A DNA stretch of 64,000 nucleotides from positions 62,001 through 126,000 of the forward strand of contig JAAEOK010000112.1 of assembly GCA_024244705.1 (NCBI GenBank). Reading direction: 5' to 3'. The position numbers were made by a program, and so were the translations under genes. Source of the DNA: Alphaproteobacteria bacterium (GTDB lineage: Bacteria; Pseudomonadota; Alphaproteobacteria; JAAEOK01). The notes under the pieces were generated by a model. The model searched no databases and had not been told where the DNA came from. It worked only from the letters and a program-made list of their open reading frames with translations. Shown piece after piece: positions 15,505 to 29,522 of this stretch. The number at the start of each line of letters is the position of its first letter. Positions within the stretch are counted from its first letter, which is position 1.

Positions 15505-15988
15505 CGCATTGGCCCTCAAATTCCTCCCGACGCAGGGTGCGAGCCATCCGATCAAGCACGCCGTTTACAAGTCCCAGTTCCTTGCCGTCAAAAAACGACC
15601 GCGCGATATCCACATACTCCGAAATCACCACGCGGGCCGGAACATCGAGACGGTTGCGAAGCTCGTAGCCGCCGAGGCGAAGCATCGCCTTGAGTACCCG
15701 GTCAAGGCGATGAAGCGGCCATTCCGGCGCGAGTACGTCACCGATTATCCGGTCAAGATCCGCACAATCGGCCGACGCATTACGGACCAGCTCATCGAAG
15801 TACGAACGATCGGCATCCGCCCTCGGGGCGCCGTCCAGGTCACCCCCGAGGCGGTACTGCGCGAATTCGCCGACCACCTTATCAACCGAAAGATCGGTCA
15901 TATCGAGTTGATAGAGCGCCTGAATCGCCGCCAGACGGGCCATACTGCGTGCGCCGGCGACTGTTGCCTCGTTTCGTCGGACGTTCAT
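15491..15988 (-). CDS. nusB: Transcription antitermination factor NusB
   Basis: This protein of about 165 residues binds boxA RNA with S10 and promotes antitermination in rRNA operons. Signature segments are ARLAAIQALYQLDMT, DVLAPEWPLHRLDRVLKAML and the C-terminal VISEYVDIARSFF, with LGLVNGVLDRMAR. The ATG at 15988 overlaps the ribH TGA (ATGA at 15985-15988), favouring this start over the longer open frame. It is translationally coupled between ribH and thiL. Confidence 0.95.
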   Translation of the reverse strand: MNVRRNEATVAGARSMARLAAIQALYQLDMTDLSVDKVVGEFAQYRLGGDLDGAPRADADRSYFDELVRNASADCADLDRIIGDVLAPEWPLHRLDRVLKAMLRLGGYELRNRLDVPARVVISEYVDIARSFFDGKELGLVNGVLDRMARTLRREEFEGQCDGRE

Positions 15989-23699: not shown

Positions 23700-24596
23700 C
23701 TAGCCCTCATCCTGCGGTGGCGGAGTGATGTTGGCCATGATCTCGGGGGGCAGTTCCTTGTCCTCTTCTTCGCCAAGATAGGCGCGAATGACGTTCGGAT
23801 CATGCCGAACTTGCTCCGGCGATCCATCGGAGATTTTCTTGCCATAATCGAGCACAACGATGTGATCCGAGATTTCCATCACCACACTCATATCGTGCTC
23901 AATCAACAGCACGCCGATTTCATGTTCATCACGGATATAGATCAACAGCTCGTTCAGCTCGCCTGATTCCCGCGGATTCAGGCCGGCCGCCGGTTCGTCC
24001 AGACAAAGCATGACCGGTTCGGTACACATGGCACGGGCGATCTCCAGCCGTCGCTGCGCGCCATAGGGTAAATTTCCGGCGTTCCAGTCGGCACGGTCGG
24101 TCAGTCGCACGCGGTCTAGCCAGTACTTCGCCAGTTCGACCGCGTCGTGCTCCGCGCTGCGGTACACCGGCAGGCCAAATAGGCCCAACAAGGTGTAGCC
24201 CGAAGCCCGCATCAGCTTGTTGTGTTGCGCGACGACCAGGTTCTCCAGAGCCGTCATCTGCGAGAACAGGCGTATGTTCTGGAACGTTCTCGCCACACCC
24301 GCCTTTTGCGAAATGCGGAATCCCTCGCTCTGTTCGAGAAGGATACGTCCATGCTGCGGATGATGAAGCGAAAGACGCCCCACCGTTGGCCGATAGAACC
24401 CTGTCAGGCAATTGAACACCGTCGTCTTGCCGGCACCGTTCGGTCCGATTATCGCGGTGATTTCCCGGTCCTTGGCCCGGAACGAAACGTCGTCGATCGC
24501 CACCAAGCCGCCGAAGCGCATGGTCAAGTGCTCGACATCTAGCAAGATGTTGCCGTCCCCGGACAAACCGGCACTTTCCGCCGCCGGCACGCTCAC
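23700..24596 (-). CDS. livG: Branched-chain amino acid ABC transporter ATP-binding protein LivG
   Basis: This ATPase of about 298 residues has Walker [10 protein letters not shown], the signature [14 protein letters not shown] (LPYG rather than LSGG, as usual in LivG) and Walker [14 protein letters not shown] place the start at GTG 24596, which overlaps the livM TGA (GTGA at 24593-24596); the frame extends to 24680 inside livM without family similarity. The tail ([20 protein letters not shown]) is a little longer than usual and acidic/proline-rich. Confidence 0.94.
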
Positions 24597-26107
24597 GGGC
24601 CGCCTCCACCGCCGGGCGACCCATGCCCATGAAGTCGCAGCGTGGGTTCGCGGTGGGCGAGCAATCCGCTTGGTCGCCACAGCATAATCAGCACCATTCC
24701 ACCACCAAACGCCAACATGCGATATTGCTGCAGCTCGCGAAACAATTCCGGCATGCCGATCAATACGACGGCGGCAACGACGACTCCCAATTGACTACCC
24801 ATCCCGCCCAGCACAACGATCGCGAGGATCACGGCCGATTCGATAAACGTGAAGCTTTCCGGGCTGATAAATCCCTGCCGCGTGGCGAAGAAAGAACCGG
24901 CAAAGCCGCCGAACATGGCGCCGATGCCAAACGCGGTGAGCTTGGTGTTGGTTGGATTGATGCCCAGGGACCGGCATGCGATCTCGTCTTCCCGAAGCGC
25001 CTCCCAAGCGCGACCGATCGGCAGCCTGCGAATACGGATGGTAAACAGATTCACCACCATCGCCAGTGCGATGATGATGTAATAGAGATAGATGACCCGG
25101 TCTATGGGGCTGTAGGTGAGGCCAAAAAACTCGTGGAATGTGACGTCGCCCTCGGCCGCCTTTTTTGAAAACGTAAGACCGAAAAGAGACGGGCGCGGGA
25201 TACCGGAGATGCCATCCGGACCGTTGGTGAATTCATACCAATTGAGCAAAATGATGCGAACGATTTCGCCGAATCCTAACGTCACGATTGCCAGATAATC
25301 GCCACGCAGCCGAAGGACGGGAAAACCCAACAAAACGCCGAAGCTCGCGGCAAAGAAACCGGCCAGCGGTAAGCATATCCAAAAATTAAAGTCAAAATAC
25401 TGGGCCAGCAACGCGAAGCTATAGGCGCCGACGGCATAAAACGCCACATACCCGAGATCGAGGAGACCGGCGAGGCCAACAACGATATTCAGGCCCCAGC
25501 CCAACATGACGTAAGTCATCACAAGCGTGCCGATGTCGACCACCCTGCGATCGGCGAAGGGCATGAATGGCAGCGCCAAGGCAAATAGAAAAATCAGCGG
25601 ACCAATGTATTTCGCATAATGCTGAACCGCGGCGCCGATATGATCGAGCCGTTCTTCCATGTTTTCGCTGTCGCCGCGCCGGTCGTTTAGCCGCGATAAG
25701 GCGCGGATCGCGAATATTACCGCGACGACGACGATCATCCACGCCACGATTGGATCGTTGAAGGGTCGAAGCTTGGCCAAGCCGGCAGCCACTTCCGGGT
25801 CCAGGAAATACTTGGATAGCAGTATGAGGACCAAATACGCGGCAACCACGGCGCTGCCGACGAGGACCATGAAGGGGCGGTTTTCGCGGAGGCCGATCAA
25901 TGCCAATCGACCGAGAAATCCGAACACGCCTGCCGTGAGGACATCGACAAATCGGGTGGCCAATTCCATGCCGCCGGGCACGTCCTTGATATGGAAGCCG
26001 ACGAGCGGAAACGCCAACGCGCAGATGACAAACGCGGTGAGACCCGCTTCCTTCAACGCCGCCGCGGAATCAAAGCGCCGATGACCGGGCAGAGCGAGTT
26101 CGGCCAT
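24593..26107 (-). CDS. livM: Branched-chain amino acid ABC transporter permease LivM
   Basis: This 504-residue permease is longer than the usual 300-430 residues. The conserved LivM core occupies the C-terminal two thirds: [20 protein letters not shown], then [20 protein letters not shown], the EAA-type loop [20 protein letters not shown] and [18 protein letters not shown]. The N-terminal roughly 170 residues hold four extra hydrophobic segments, an arrangement seen in other proteobacterial LivM proteins of the high-molecular-mass type. It begins 3 bp after livH. Confidence 0.94.
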
Positions 26108-26110
26108 GGC

Positions 26111-27022
26111 TCAAACCTTCTCCATCTCGGGTTTGCCAAGTAGTCCGGTCGGCCGGAAGATCAGAATCAGCACCAGCACACCAAATGCAGCGACGTCTTT
26201 GTACTCGACGGTGAAATAGCCCGACCAGAACGTTTCGATCAGACCGATCAACAGACCCCCGAGCATGGCGCCCGGCAGCGAGCCGATACCGCCGAGGACC
26301 GCGGCCGTGAACGCCTTGAGGCCGGCCAGGAACCCGATAAAGAAGTCGATCACGCCCCAATAGAGAACAGCCATCATGCCGGCGACCGCGGCCAAGCCGG
26401 CGCCCATGACGAAGGTCAACGATATCGTGCGGTCGACATTGACGCCGACCAGCGCCGCCATGCCGCGATCCTGTTCGCAGGCCCGCTGTGCCCTGCCCAA
26501 GGGCGATCGCGCGATCATCAAAGAGAACGCGATCATCAGGCAAACCGTCAGCACGATAATGAAGACCTGCAAATAGCTCATCTGAACGACAAACCCGGTG
26601 TCGGATTCAACGATCGCGAAGCCGCCCGAGAATACCGGCGGCAACGGCTTGTTCCGCGCGCCCTGCAACAACTGCACGTAATTCTGGAAAAAAATCGACA
26701 TACCGATGGCGGAGATCAGGGCAGCCAACCGCGGAGACCCGCGCAGGGGCCGGTAGGCCACCCGTTCCAAGGACCAACCGTAAATCGACGCAAACAGCAT
26801 CGAGAACAGCAATACGATGATCAGCGCCAACGGCAACCAAGCATCGATACCGATCAGAAGGAACATGATGATCGAGCAGAAGGCGCCGATCATGTAGATC
26901 TCGCCGTGCGCGAAATTGATCATTCCGATGATCCCGTAGACCATCGTGTAGCCGATGGCGATCAACCCATAGATCATGCCCAGGGTGACGCCATTGATAA
27001 GTTGCTGCAGGAAATACTCCAT
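26111..27022 (-). CDS. livH: Branched-chain amino acid ABC transporter permease LivH
   Basis: This 303-residue permease starts at ATG 27022, preceded by AAAGGGG; the frame continues to 27112 but without similarity. Conserved LivH segments are LINGVTLGMIYGLIAIGYTM, GMINFAHGEIYMIGAF, RPLRGSPRLAALISAIGMS and the GLKAFTAAVLGGIGSLPGA region near the C-terminus. It is the first gene of the operon and pairs with LivM to form the channel. Confidence 0.95.
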   Translation of the reverse strand: MEYFLQQLINGVTLGMIYGLIAIGYTMVYGIIGMINFAHGEIYMIGAFCSIIMFLLIGIDAWLPLALIIVLLFSMLFASIYGWSLERVAYRPLRGSPRLAALISAIGMSIFFQNYVQLLQGARNKPLPPVFSGGFAIVESDTGFVVQMSYLQVFIIVLTVCLMIAFSLMIARSPLGRAQRACEQDRGMAALVGVNVDRTISLTFVMGAGLAAVAGMMAVLYWGVIDFFIGFLAGLKAFTAAVLGGIGSLPGAMLGGLLIGLIETFWSGYFTVEYKDVAAFGVLVLILIFRPTGLLGKPEMEKV

Positions 27023-27316
27023 GCGCCCCTTTGGACCTACGCCGCTATGCTGCCGTACGGCGGTGGGAAGGTGCCGCTCGGCCTCCCCATAGGGAGCGGA
27101 TGCCAAAACCAATTATTCGTTCGGTAAGCGCGACTTTGTCCGCGTTTGGCAGGCCTCACTGAACGCTCTCCACACCCTGTTCTTTGCCGGGTTCCCGTGG
27201 CGCACGGAATTTTGACGCGCCCGGCCCGTTATTGTGTCAGCGGCGAGACATAGCGCAGCCGCCTATAGGCGGCAAGTAAAATTGCGCCAACGAATCGGTG
27301 ATACCGGAAACGATCG
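27023..27316. other. Promoter region of the liv operon
   Basis: This gap of 294 bases lies between livH and the MarR gene, both on the minus strand, so it should contain the liv promoter. A 6-bp perfect hairpin GCCGCC-TATA-GGCGGC sits at 27258-27273 just after the MarR gene stop but lacks a T-run. No gene is seen. Confidence 0.4.
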
Positions 27317-27922
27317 TCAGTGTCGTTCGACGGCGACGTTTTCGGGCGATTTGTGATTGACGCAGATGAGCGCGGTATCCGTCTGACGCAAGGGATCGCC
27401 AGTGAGGCCGCAGCGATGCGGGGCATCGGGTACGATATCGAGATCGCGTTCCAAATAACTACAGGTGCGGCACACTCCGAATTGTTTGCAGCCTTGTTTC
27501 GCATTGAGGCGGCCAAGCAACCGGTTGAGCCCGTCGACCAACGACGATTCGAGATTGTTCGGAAGATCCGCCGTCAACTCGTTGATTCTCTTAAGAGGAT
27601 CGGCCTTCAACAACTCTTCGCCAGAGTCCGTCAATTCCAAACACGTGACCCGTCGATCGGTATCGCAAGGCACCTTATGGACGTAGCCTTTGGATGCCAA
27701 GGCGATCAACGTCTGCGACGCCGTCCCCCGTGTCGTGTTCAGAAACTGGGCCAGCCCGCCCGGGGTCCGGGAAATCCGGTTGGCGCGGCTGAGAAATCGC
27801 AATGCCTCCCACTGCGCTGGATTTAGCCCGACATCGAATTCGAGCTGCCGAGTCGTACGGCTGATACGATCAATCAGCTCTGCGACGCAGCTCCCGTAAC
27901 ACTTACCCTCAGAGAAATCCAT
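27317..27922 (-). CDS. MarR-family regulator with cysteine-rich C-terminal region
   Basis: This 201-residue protein has a MarR winged helix in residues 15-140: LNPAQWEALRFLSRANR, GGLAQFLNTTRGTASQTLIA (recognition helix region) and the wing CDTDRRVTCLELTDSGEELL. After the dimer helix comes a cysteine-rich tail with Cys145, Cys151, Cys154, Cys171 and Cys187 (the first three in CKQFGVCRTC), plus Cys8 and Cys12. Such spacing suggests a metal or iron-sulfur site or a redox switch. It is divergent from the rpoH-like gene across 129 bp, which hold two copies of an 11-bp repeat. Its ligand and targets are unknown. Confidence 0.85.
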   Translation of the reverse strand: MDFSEGKCYGSCVAELIDRISRTTRQLEFDVGLNPAQWEALRFLSRANRISRTPGGLAQFLNTTRGTASQTLIALASKGYVHKVPCDTDRRVTCLELTDSGEELLKADPLKRINELTADLPNNLESSLVDGLNRLLGRLNAKQGCKQFGVCRTCSYLERDLDIVPDAPHRCGLTGDPLRQTDTALICVNHKSPENVAVERH

Positions 27923-27941
27923 GGCACGCCATTAAATATAT

Positions 27942-27952
27942 TAGCGACTCGA
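27942..27952. repeat. 11-bp direct repeat, copy 1
   Basis: TAGCGACTCGA occurs here, 20 bases upstream of the MarR-gene start codon, and again at 27989-27999. Each copy contains GACTC, a GANTC site methylated by CcrM in alphaproteobacteria. A regulator operator is the simplest reading. Confidence 0.55.
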
Positions 27953-27960
27953 TATTATTC

Positions 27961-27989
27961 TTGCGTTCCCGCGTGAGTGCCGTTATAGT
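27961..27989 (+). promoter_or_regulatory. Predicted promoter of the rpoH-like gene
   Basis: TTGCGT (27961-27966) and TATAGT (27984-27989) are separated by 17 bases. The -10 element abuts the second copy of the 11-bp repeat, so a protein bound there would block initiation. Confidence 0.55.
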
Positions 27990-27999
27990 AGCGACTCGA
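27989..27999. repeat. 11-bp direct repeat, copy 2
   Basis: This is the second TAGCGACTCGA, 47 bp (start to start) from the first and overlapping the last base of the predicted -10 box of the rpoH-like gene. Confidence 0.55.
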
Positions 28000-28051
28000 A
28001 ACTAAATCGTGCGGTCACACCAGCAGTCCGCAGATGAAATGAAGCGAATGG

Positions 28052-28939
28052 GTGAAAAAATCAATGGCTTCCAAATCGACTTCCTCCGATCGCGGCAATC
28101 AGCGTTTCATTTCCACCTTGATGAAGGCGCCGCTACTTGAGCGGGAGCACGAGTATGACCTGTCTCGGCGGTGGCGTGAGGAAGGCGATGAAAAGGCGCT
28201 GGATGAACTCGTGGTTAGCCATGGCCGTCTGGTGGTGAGGATCGCTTGGCGCTTTCGCGGCAGCGGACTTCCGATCGATGACCTGATTCAGGAAGGAAAT
28301 TCTGGTTTGCTCGATGCCGCCGACCGGTTCGACCCTGAACGCCTGGTACGTTTTTCGACCTACGCGACGTGGTGGATCGTGGCGGCAATTCAAAACTACA
28401 TTCTACGCAATTCCTCCGTTGTTCGAGTCGCGACGACGCCGACCCAGCGCCGGCTATTCTTCAATCTGCGCCGCGCGCGCGCGAAGATGCAGGCTTCTCA
28501 GGACGGGTTTACGTCGACCGATCGTGAGGCGCTCGCCGAAGAACTTGGCGTCAACGTCACCGACGTCGAGAAAATGGAGGCCCATCTATCACGGCCCGAC
28601 CAATCGCTGAACACGCCGATCGGAGAGGATGACGGCGCGACCTTGCAGGACTTTTTCACTGCCGATGGCCCGTCGCCGGAGGATATTGCTCTGGATCACG
28701 AGCAAAGCCAGGCCCAGCGCAAATGGATCGATCAGGCGCTCGACAAATTGTCGCCGCGGGAGCAGGAAATCATCCAACAGCGATTTCTCTCCGACAAGAA
28801 GGCTACCCTGGCAGAGATCGGCGAGTCTTTCGGTGTAAGCAAGGAACGGATTCGTCAGATCGAAAGCAAAGCGCTGTCAAAGATGGGAACGATTCTCACA
28901 GACATCGTACATGATCGCCGGGATATCGCCGGTCACTGA
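28052..28939 (+). CDS. rpoH: RNA polymerase sigma factor RpoH (sigma-32 type)
   Basis: This sigma-70-family factor of about 295 residues is of the heat-shock type. Region 2 reads VVSHGRLVVRIAWRFRG, then DLIQEGNSGLLDAADRFDPE and FSTYATWWIVAAIQNYIL; the RpoH box region QRRLFFNLRR is clear; region 4.2 shows LSPREQEIIQQRFLSDKKAT with the helix-turn-helix GVSKERIRQIESKAL. The frame begins with GTG 28052; ATG 28064 is an alternative, and neither has a strong ribosome site. Alphaproteobacteria often hold several RpoH paralogues; being next to a MarR regulator rather than a heat-shock operon suggests a secondary, stress-specific copy. Confidence 0.88.
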   Translation: MKKSMASKSTSSDRGNQRFISTLMKAPLLEREHEYDLSRRWREEGDEKALDELVVSHGRLVVRIAWRFRGSGLPIDDLIQEGNSGLLDAADRFDPERLVRFSTYATWWIVAAIQNYILRNSSVVRVATTPTQRRLFFNLRRARAKMQASQDGFTSTDREALAEELGVNVTDVEKMEAHLSRPDQSLNTPIGEDDGATLQDFFTADGPSPEDIALDHEQSQAQRKWIDQALDKLSPREQEIIQQRFLSDKKATLAEIGESFGVSKERIRQIESKALSKMGTILTDIVHDRRDIAGH

Positions 28940-28976
28940 CGGCGATCGGACTTGTCCGTATTTCCAGGCGCGAGAC

Positions 28977-29522
28977 CTATGCGGCGGTGCGGGAACGGCG
29001 AACCGGTGCGGCGGTGTGCGATCCGACATCGGACCAGAAATCCTCGAGACAGTGCAGCCGTGCGTTGACTTCCGTCAACTCCTGCTCGGTCATTTCTCTC
29101 GCGAGACGGACACTATGACGATCGAAGACCTCGGCCAAGCGTCGGCAAAGATCCATGCCGTCATCGGAGAGGCGCACCCGGACCGAGCGGCGATCGCGCG
29201 GTGAGCGCTGCTGGGTGACATACCCGGCCTCGATCATCTTCTTCATGTTGTATGTGACATTGGTGCCCATGTAGCAGCCGCGCTGCGTCAACTCGCCGAC
29301 CGTCAATTCGTCATCGCCAATGTTATAGAGAATTAGACATTGGACGCTGTTGATGTCGTCAACCCCGAGACGGTCGAGTTCTTCCTTCACGACATCCAGA
29401 AAATGCCGGTAGAGTCGCTCGATCAACGCAACTGTTTCCAGGTAAACCGGTCTCACTGAACGTCCTCGCTTGGATTCGGCTAGGTAGGAGACCGTGTTAG
29501 CGCGAATAGATTTAAATTTCAT
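28977..29522 (-). CDS. ldtR: LdtR-like MarR-family regulator
   Basis: This 181-residue winged-helix protein contains DDINSVQCLILYNIGDDELT, then RGCYMGTNVTYNMKKMIEAG as recognition helix and SPRDRRSVRVRLSDDGMDLC as wing. The GCY(M/L)G(T/S)NV(T/S)YN(M/V)KK segment is characteristic of the alphaproteobacterial group containing LdtR of Liberibacter, which controls L,D-transpeptidase and osmotic-stress genes. It begins right next to the mmsB stop, so it may share the valine-operon transcript. The name is by family resemblance; the target genes here are not known. Confidence 0.7.
   Translation of the reverse strand: MKFKSIRANTVSYLAESKRGRSVRPVYLETVALIERLYRHFLDVVKEELDRLGVDDINSVQCLILYNIGDDELTVGELTQRGCYMGTNVTYNMKKMIEAGYVTQQRSPRDRRSVRVRLSDDGMDLCRRLAEVFDRHSVRLAREMTEQELTEVNARLHCLEDFWSDVGSHTAAPVRRSRTAA

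Follow-up and report, generated by a model that had tools for sequence, protein, structure and literature searches.

Regulators of the MarR family act from palindromic operators that lie over promoters, and a divergent neighbour is controlled from the intergenic region that it shares with the regulator gene. Promoters of Alphaproteobacteria are in addition known to be controlled by CcrM through GANTC sites. The classical autoregulated MarR repressors (MarR, SlyA, OhrR and MepR type) resemble the locus described here in their winged-helix fold, their palindromic operators and their divergent neighbour; unlike theirs, the predicted target here is an alternative sigma factor, and the MarR fold is followed by a further C-terminal stretch in which four cysteines are invariant. 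The device is of an ordinary kind; it is made notable by its predicted sigma-factor target, its cysteine domain and how broadly it is conserved. A further precedent is ArnR of Corynebacterium, likewise a MarR/ArsR-like winged helix with a C-terminal cysteine domain, in which that domain binds a [4Fe-4S] centre and NO abolishes DNA binding, according to excerpts of the published account (PMC12343034). In the same excerpts ArnR differs in having three conserved cysteines, in acting on nar and hmp rather than on a sigma factor, and in having no stated sequence relation to the protein considered here; by analogy, it shows that the design of a winged helix joined to an Fe-S C-terminal domain exists.

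The sigma factor compares most closely with RpoH2 (RpoHII) of Alphaproteobacteria, being likewise a second RpoH beside the housekeeping RpoH, on the rpoH2-like branch and with a borderline score against the PRK07500 model. In Rhizobiales, the available part of PMC4843759 assigns to rpoH2 mostly sigma24 promoter signals located far upstream and to rpoH1 sigma70 and sigma32 signals, and it credits two Nitrobacter species with rpoH1 only; in contrast to the sigma24 arrangement, the gene at this locus has a sigma70-like predicted promoter and MarR operators. Control of RpoH2 has been worked out in few Alphaproteobacteria, with sigma24 as the reported route (PMC4843759, same part). A search of the open literature by title or abstract opening returned no paper on MarR control of rpoH2, and the accessible part of PMC4999443 holds a single mention of MarR, within a reference.

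In the window, that is, the whole stretch of 64,000 nucleotides that was analysed, a marR gene and an rpoH2-like gene are divergently oriented (Table 1). The first-pass annotation had reported an 11-mer, TAGCGACTCGA, duplicated between them, with one copy shortly before the marR start codon, the second at the -10 edge of the predicted rpoH promoter and a GANTC site in each. This description is confirmed: exact copies occupy 27942-27952 and 27989-27999, on the same strand and 47 bp apart; the first starts 19-20 bases ahead of the marR start codon (ATG at 27922, minus strand), the second shares its opening base with the end of the TATAGT hexamer (27984-27989), and GACTC forms the centre of both. 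The copies extend to a 21-nt repeat of 86% identity (27937-27957 and 27984-28004). Each is also an imperfect 19-bp palindrome (7/9 pairs, counted by eye), a property absent from that annotation, centred, as read from the sequence, at 27948 and 27995 (the C of GACTC) and with mismatches that partly differ between the two. From sequence comparison we regard it as very probable that the copies are two operators, O1 and O2, through which the adjacent MarR would repress both rpoH2 and itself.

Table 1. Coordinates of the genes and predicted regulatory elements at the marR/rpoH2 locus.
Feature	Position	Strand	Description
marR, MarR-family regulator, 201 aa	27317..27922	-	Open reading frame; C-terminal domain with four invariant cysteines, C151, C154, C171 and C187
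Operator O1 (predicted)	27937..27959	.	Imperfect palindrome of 23 bp that includes the first 11-mer copy; centre 27948, core 27942-27954; placement ahead of marR is conserved
-35 TTGCGT of predicted rpoH2 promoter	27961..27966	+	Starts 13 nt after O1 centre
-10 TATAGT of predicted rpoH2 promoter	27984..27989	+	Left edge of O2
Operator O2 (predicted)	27984..28006	.	Imperfect palindrome of 23 bp that includes the second 11-mer copy; centre 27995, core 27989-28001; over -10 and predicted start point
rpoH2-like sigma-32 family gene, 291 aa	28064..28939	+	ATG 28064 (GTG 28052 also possible); Pfam Sigma70_r2/r3/r4

The identity of the sigma factor was examined against the other RpoH of the genome (C36). 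The window protein scores 315.9 bits against the NCBIfam model PRK07500 (cut-off 315), where the C36 protein reaches 313.2, and the order is reversed against TIGR02392 (cut-off 323.1), with 378.5 for the C36 RpoH and 280.9 for that of the window. Besides these two, an open frame at C88 gives a weaker match, which is probably RpoD. A 72-row tree sets 14 housekeeping-like rows apart as a clade of their own (support 99/100), and the C36 protein groups with housekeeping RpoH. The window RpoH clusters with the marR-linked RpoH proteins, on the side of the tree that also contains the second RpoH of a Mesorhizobium (PRK07500, 475 bits), through which this side gets its rpoH2 label, the tree itself containing no named reference RpoH2; several branches are open, and the placement of long rows is unsure. 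By this tree the window RpoH is rpoH2-like and apart from housekeeping rpoH1. Downstream of and convergent to it is a second MarR-type gene, LdtR-like (28977-29522, minus strand; 184 bits against NCBIfam LdtR, cut-off 250), such a gene being found near the marR/rpoH pair also in L007, L027, L029, L034, L045 and L084. Behind marR, on its strand, follow livH- and livM-like transporter genes (24593-27112, minus strand), as they do in L027, L029, L034 and L045.

The repeat alone is not significant, since the window contains 2 exact direct repeats of at least 11 nt within 100 bp against a mean of 2.7 expected (range 0-5) from 30 first-order Markov simulations. The genome scan for the 11-mer that had been suggested in search of other promoters showed no enrichment: 3 exact copies exist in 4.5 Mb against ~1.9 expected, and the third copy lies within an open reading frame (L111). 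Proof from the rarity of the repeat was dropped on both counts (2 against 2.7 repeats, 3 against ~1.9 11-mers). The perfect 13-bp palindromic core, TADCGASTCGHTA, occurs genome-wide only at the marR/rpoH2 locus (0.5 expected). That the repeat arose by chance and has no function accords with the 2.7 repeats of this kind expected per window, but as a general account it is refuted by the conservation of the sites in 65/81 regions and by the control with marR-linked and unlinked RpoH genes, both described below, and we find it hardly credible. On sequence comparison, the significance of the sites comes from their conservation in other genomes and not from the rarity of the repeat.

This conservation was followed in 80 loci with a relative of MarR, a sample biased to close relatives because it was fetched by short peptide patterns of MarR. 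Scanning from -350 to +20 around the marR start, with a threshold of at least 8/10 core letters, we found a site in 64/80 loci as opposed to 2/80 in equal coding stretches taken as control. With the window's own locus added, 65/81 regions carry a site (dinucleotide shuffles: mean 9.6, largest 18) and 56/81 carry two (shuffles 0.73), and the excess persists with a stricter match (9/10 letters, 58/81 against 0.52 in shuffles; 10/10 letters, 44/81 against 0.02). The palindrome upstream of marR approximates TATAGTATCGA[C/G]TCGATAnTATA, and the commonest base per column over 91 sites gives TATAGTATCGACTCGATATTATT. As a symmetrised consensus is palindromic by construction, palindromy is argued from the unsymmetrised columns, in which the outer pairs at offsets 8, 9 and 10 are palindromic though they lie outside the search core, and pairs 7 and 11 are not. 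Covariation between half-sites showed no excess in a flank-pair shuffle. No site at 8/10 was detected in 16/80 loci (L040, L044, L052, L054, L058, L059, L065, L067-L070, L074-L076, L078 and L079), among which L058 has just 1 bp of upstream DNA and some show, by eye, a variant such as TTGCTAGTAGCAA. MarR is matched at E 1e-20 or better in 54/387 genomes drawn evenly from the class, a figure that counts homologues and not marR-rpoH pairs.

The comparison also bears on whose sites these are. RpoH is the divergent gene ahead of marR in 33/80 loci, all 33 of which have at least two sites, and sites are likewise present in 31 of the other 47, where the divergent neighbour is not RpoH; because they are kept there, the sites appear to belong to MarR. 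Conversely, RpoH genes from whole-genome searches have two sites in 13/13 cases when marR is in the locus and in 0/19 when it is not nearby (2/19 with one weak site), a difference indicating that the site follows the marR gene. The same searches gave 36 marR loci, 30 of them with a divergent RpoH, of which all 30 had at least one site and 28 had two; the other 6 had none, and five of these are weak or partial matches. As some genomes occur in both, the whole-genome set and the 80-locus set are not independent. Oceanibacterium hippocampi (L077) and Desertibaculum subflavum (L023) are two culturable relatives that carry the pair. The proposal of the first-pass annotation that one regulator, probably the adjacent MarR, controls both genes is thus strongly supported by the comparison, in which the sites travel with marR. 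That another regulator binds them (the LdtR-like protein, or RpoH2 in a feedback) and marR is a bystander would be in keeping with the LdtR-like gene that adjoins the locus and lies near the pair in 5/33 rpoH-linked loci (L007, L027, L029, L034 and L045). However, the sites are also present in the other 28 rpoH-linked loci, with no LdtR neighbour detected, and in the 31/47 loci without RpoH, their constant companion being MarR rather than LdtR or RpoH, which makes this alternative very improbable.

Candidates for the divergent gene were obtained at 39 of the 47 non-RpoH loci (8 gave none) and clustered. The largest cluster, 22/39, is a family of ~240 aa that is apparently secreted (e.g. L056:2148-2891); the others comprise 5 protoglobin-like proteins, 4 thioredoxin-fold proteins and 8 others including cytochrome P460. 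A Pfam scan of ten divergent neighbours matched protoglobin in L030, cytochrome P460 in L035, AhpC-TSA in L064 and, below the cut-off, in L069, adenylosuccinate lyase in L054 and a penicillin-binding protein in L075, and gave no Pfam match for the four members of the ~240-aa family scanned. In L069, one of the 4 thioredoxin-fold loci, the frame nearest marR begins, by eye, like the protoglobins, so the gene that was clustered probably lies one further out. Protoglobin-like partners occur in L030, L042, L049, L052 and L067 (one confirmed by Pfam), two of which, L052 and L067, have no site at threshold. Together with the cytochrome P460 of L035, these partners suggest a haem- or NO-related signal for the MarR family. 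In the Nitrobacter loci, MarR and its sites are kept beside a different gene, consistent with the report, in the available part of PMC4843759, of two Nitrobacter species with only rpoH1.

The sites stand in a nearly fixed relation to the promoter predicted for rpoH2, which is sigma70-like (TTGCGT-17-TATAGT, a 17-bp spacer). Geometry was scored in the 53 loci whose two sites are separated by 40-62 bp; the rule asked for a TTG and, at promoter spacing, a hexamer having A in second and T in sixth place, 20 offsets being allowed. By this rule 42/53 loci have a promoter, with the TTG 12-15 nt after the O1 centre in 42/42 and the -10-like hexamer starting 11 nt before the O2 centre in 21/42; in 11/53 the rule found none. 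From these conserved offsets, O1 would abut the -35 and O2 would cover the -10 and the start point; O2 of the window indeed overlaps the predicted -10 of the promoter that it would control, and the operator consensus has a -10 element (TATAGT) for its left arm. A stricter promoter scan of 27000-29000 found none, so the rpoH2 promoter is argued from conservation; similarly, marR itself showed no convincing -35/-10, and its autorepression is argued from position. The nearly fixed distance from O1 to the -35 (42/42 TTGs 12-15 nt after the centre) is what an activator site would also display, and MarR might be an activator or dual regulator that recruits RNA polymerase from O1 and tunes it through O2. 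We consider this unlikely, as an operator over the -10 and start point is in the usual position of a repressor, and O1 also lies at the marR start, where autoregulation explains its place.

The regulator itself is a winged-helix protein by Pfam (MarR_2, 42.9 bits, cut-off 27), with no NCBIfam equivalog above cut-off. Its structure model (mean pLDDT 92.9) matches MarR structures over ~140 columns; a sequence search of solved structures returned general MarR proteins only, as did a fold search among the 50 matches listed. Over its last 62 residues no Pfam family reaches the cut-off (nearest Fer2, E 0.073, 13.5 bits against 21). The four cysteines are present in 81/81 aligned proteins and invariant in a 62-sequence alignment too, and may hold a metal or redox centre. 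A quick MarR tree places the rpoH-linked proteins, along with that of L058 (the locus with 1 bp of upstream DNA), to the same side of one split, although the support of this split is low (0.17).

For repression by MarR, the reading we favour, binding, repression, signal and regulon are steps that we infer. One MarR dimer would occupy each palindrome. At the rpoH2-like promoter, which is divergent from marR, O2 takes in the -10 and start point, and O1 directly precedes the -35, the O1 centre being ~25 bp before the marR start codon; given this placement, bound MarR would shut off rpoH2 and limit marR. A signal acting on the four-cysteine C-terminal domain (an oxidant, NO, or gain or loss of a Zn or Fe-S centre) would release MarR, RpoH2 would be made, and RNA polymerase would be redirected to a stress regulon.

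The first-pass annotation had further predicted that cell-cycle methylation could influence binding. Among the proteins encoded in the genome is one of 361 aa that combines N6_N4_Mtase and RAMA domains, the layout of CcrM. Like promoters under CcrM/GANTC control, the locus has GANTC at the centre of each operator and a CcrM-like enzyme encoded in the genome; unlike them, it offers no specific support for a role of methylation. That the sites are primarily methylation switches, in which the CcrM state sets MarR binding and ties rpoH2 to the cell cycle, could account for three observations: GANTC is central in 106/132 sites (broken in 26/132), a methylase is encoded, and the window holds far fewer GANTC sites than shuffles predict (188 against 358). 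However, the figure of 106/132 is inflated because the scan selected for the GANTC letters, and the mismatches of imperfect sites, of which the four GANTC letters take 27/106 where an even spread would give 42, with the outer T and A positions most variable, are distributed about as might be expected for the inner half-site of any palindrome. Moreover, operators without GANTC exist (e.g. GACCC/GGGTC in L025, L031, L033 and L036). We therefore hold such a switch to be distinctly improbable; the MarR recognition sequence, of which GANTC would form the inner half, can account for its conservation, and an effect of methylation on MarR binding is only possible.

A wider reading, which we put forward tentatively and with slightly less than even confidence, is that a four-cysteine class of MarR proteins with its own operator code (~TATAGTATCGASTCGATANTATA, embedding the -10) directly gates rpoH2 in a large part of the Alphaproteobacteria, where it would replace the sigma24 route of Rhizobiales, and elsewhere gates protoglobin, cytochrome P460, thioredoxin-fold or unknown secreted proteins. 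These alternative partner genes in lineages without rpoH2 are the reason for supposing an NO/oxidant or metal-redox signal. If true, a cysteine-rich repressor on rpoH2, kept in dozens of other genomes, would constitute a second route from signal to sigma factor, and the defined operator could be used to find members of the regulon. The swap of targets between lineages would be a case in which a regulator keeps its DNA code while the controlled gene changes.

Further targets in the same genome were sought among 11 core sites with one mismatch outside the window (L111-L121) and one with two mismatches (L122), the latter kind being known from among the matches listed, each viewed in its context. 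Most lie inside open reading frames, as does a core-like site at window position 15901, which falls in overlapping open frames; L116, L121 and L122 are outside the longer frames. In L113 (1501-1513; G000:C1:100820), a one-mismatch core, CATCGAGTCGATA, has a good right arm and stands just before a possible start codon; it may be intergenic, ahead of a gene without a Pfam match, and is a possible second target. In L116 (1440-1570; G000:C57, a 4-kb contig), the near-operator TATCGACTCAATA is located, by eye, between the inverted-repeat arms TGATACCAAG and CTTGGTATCA.
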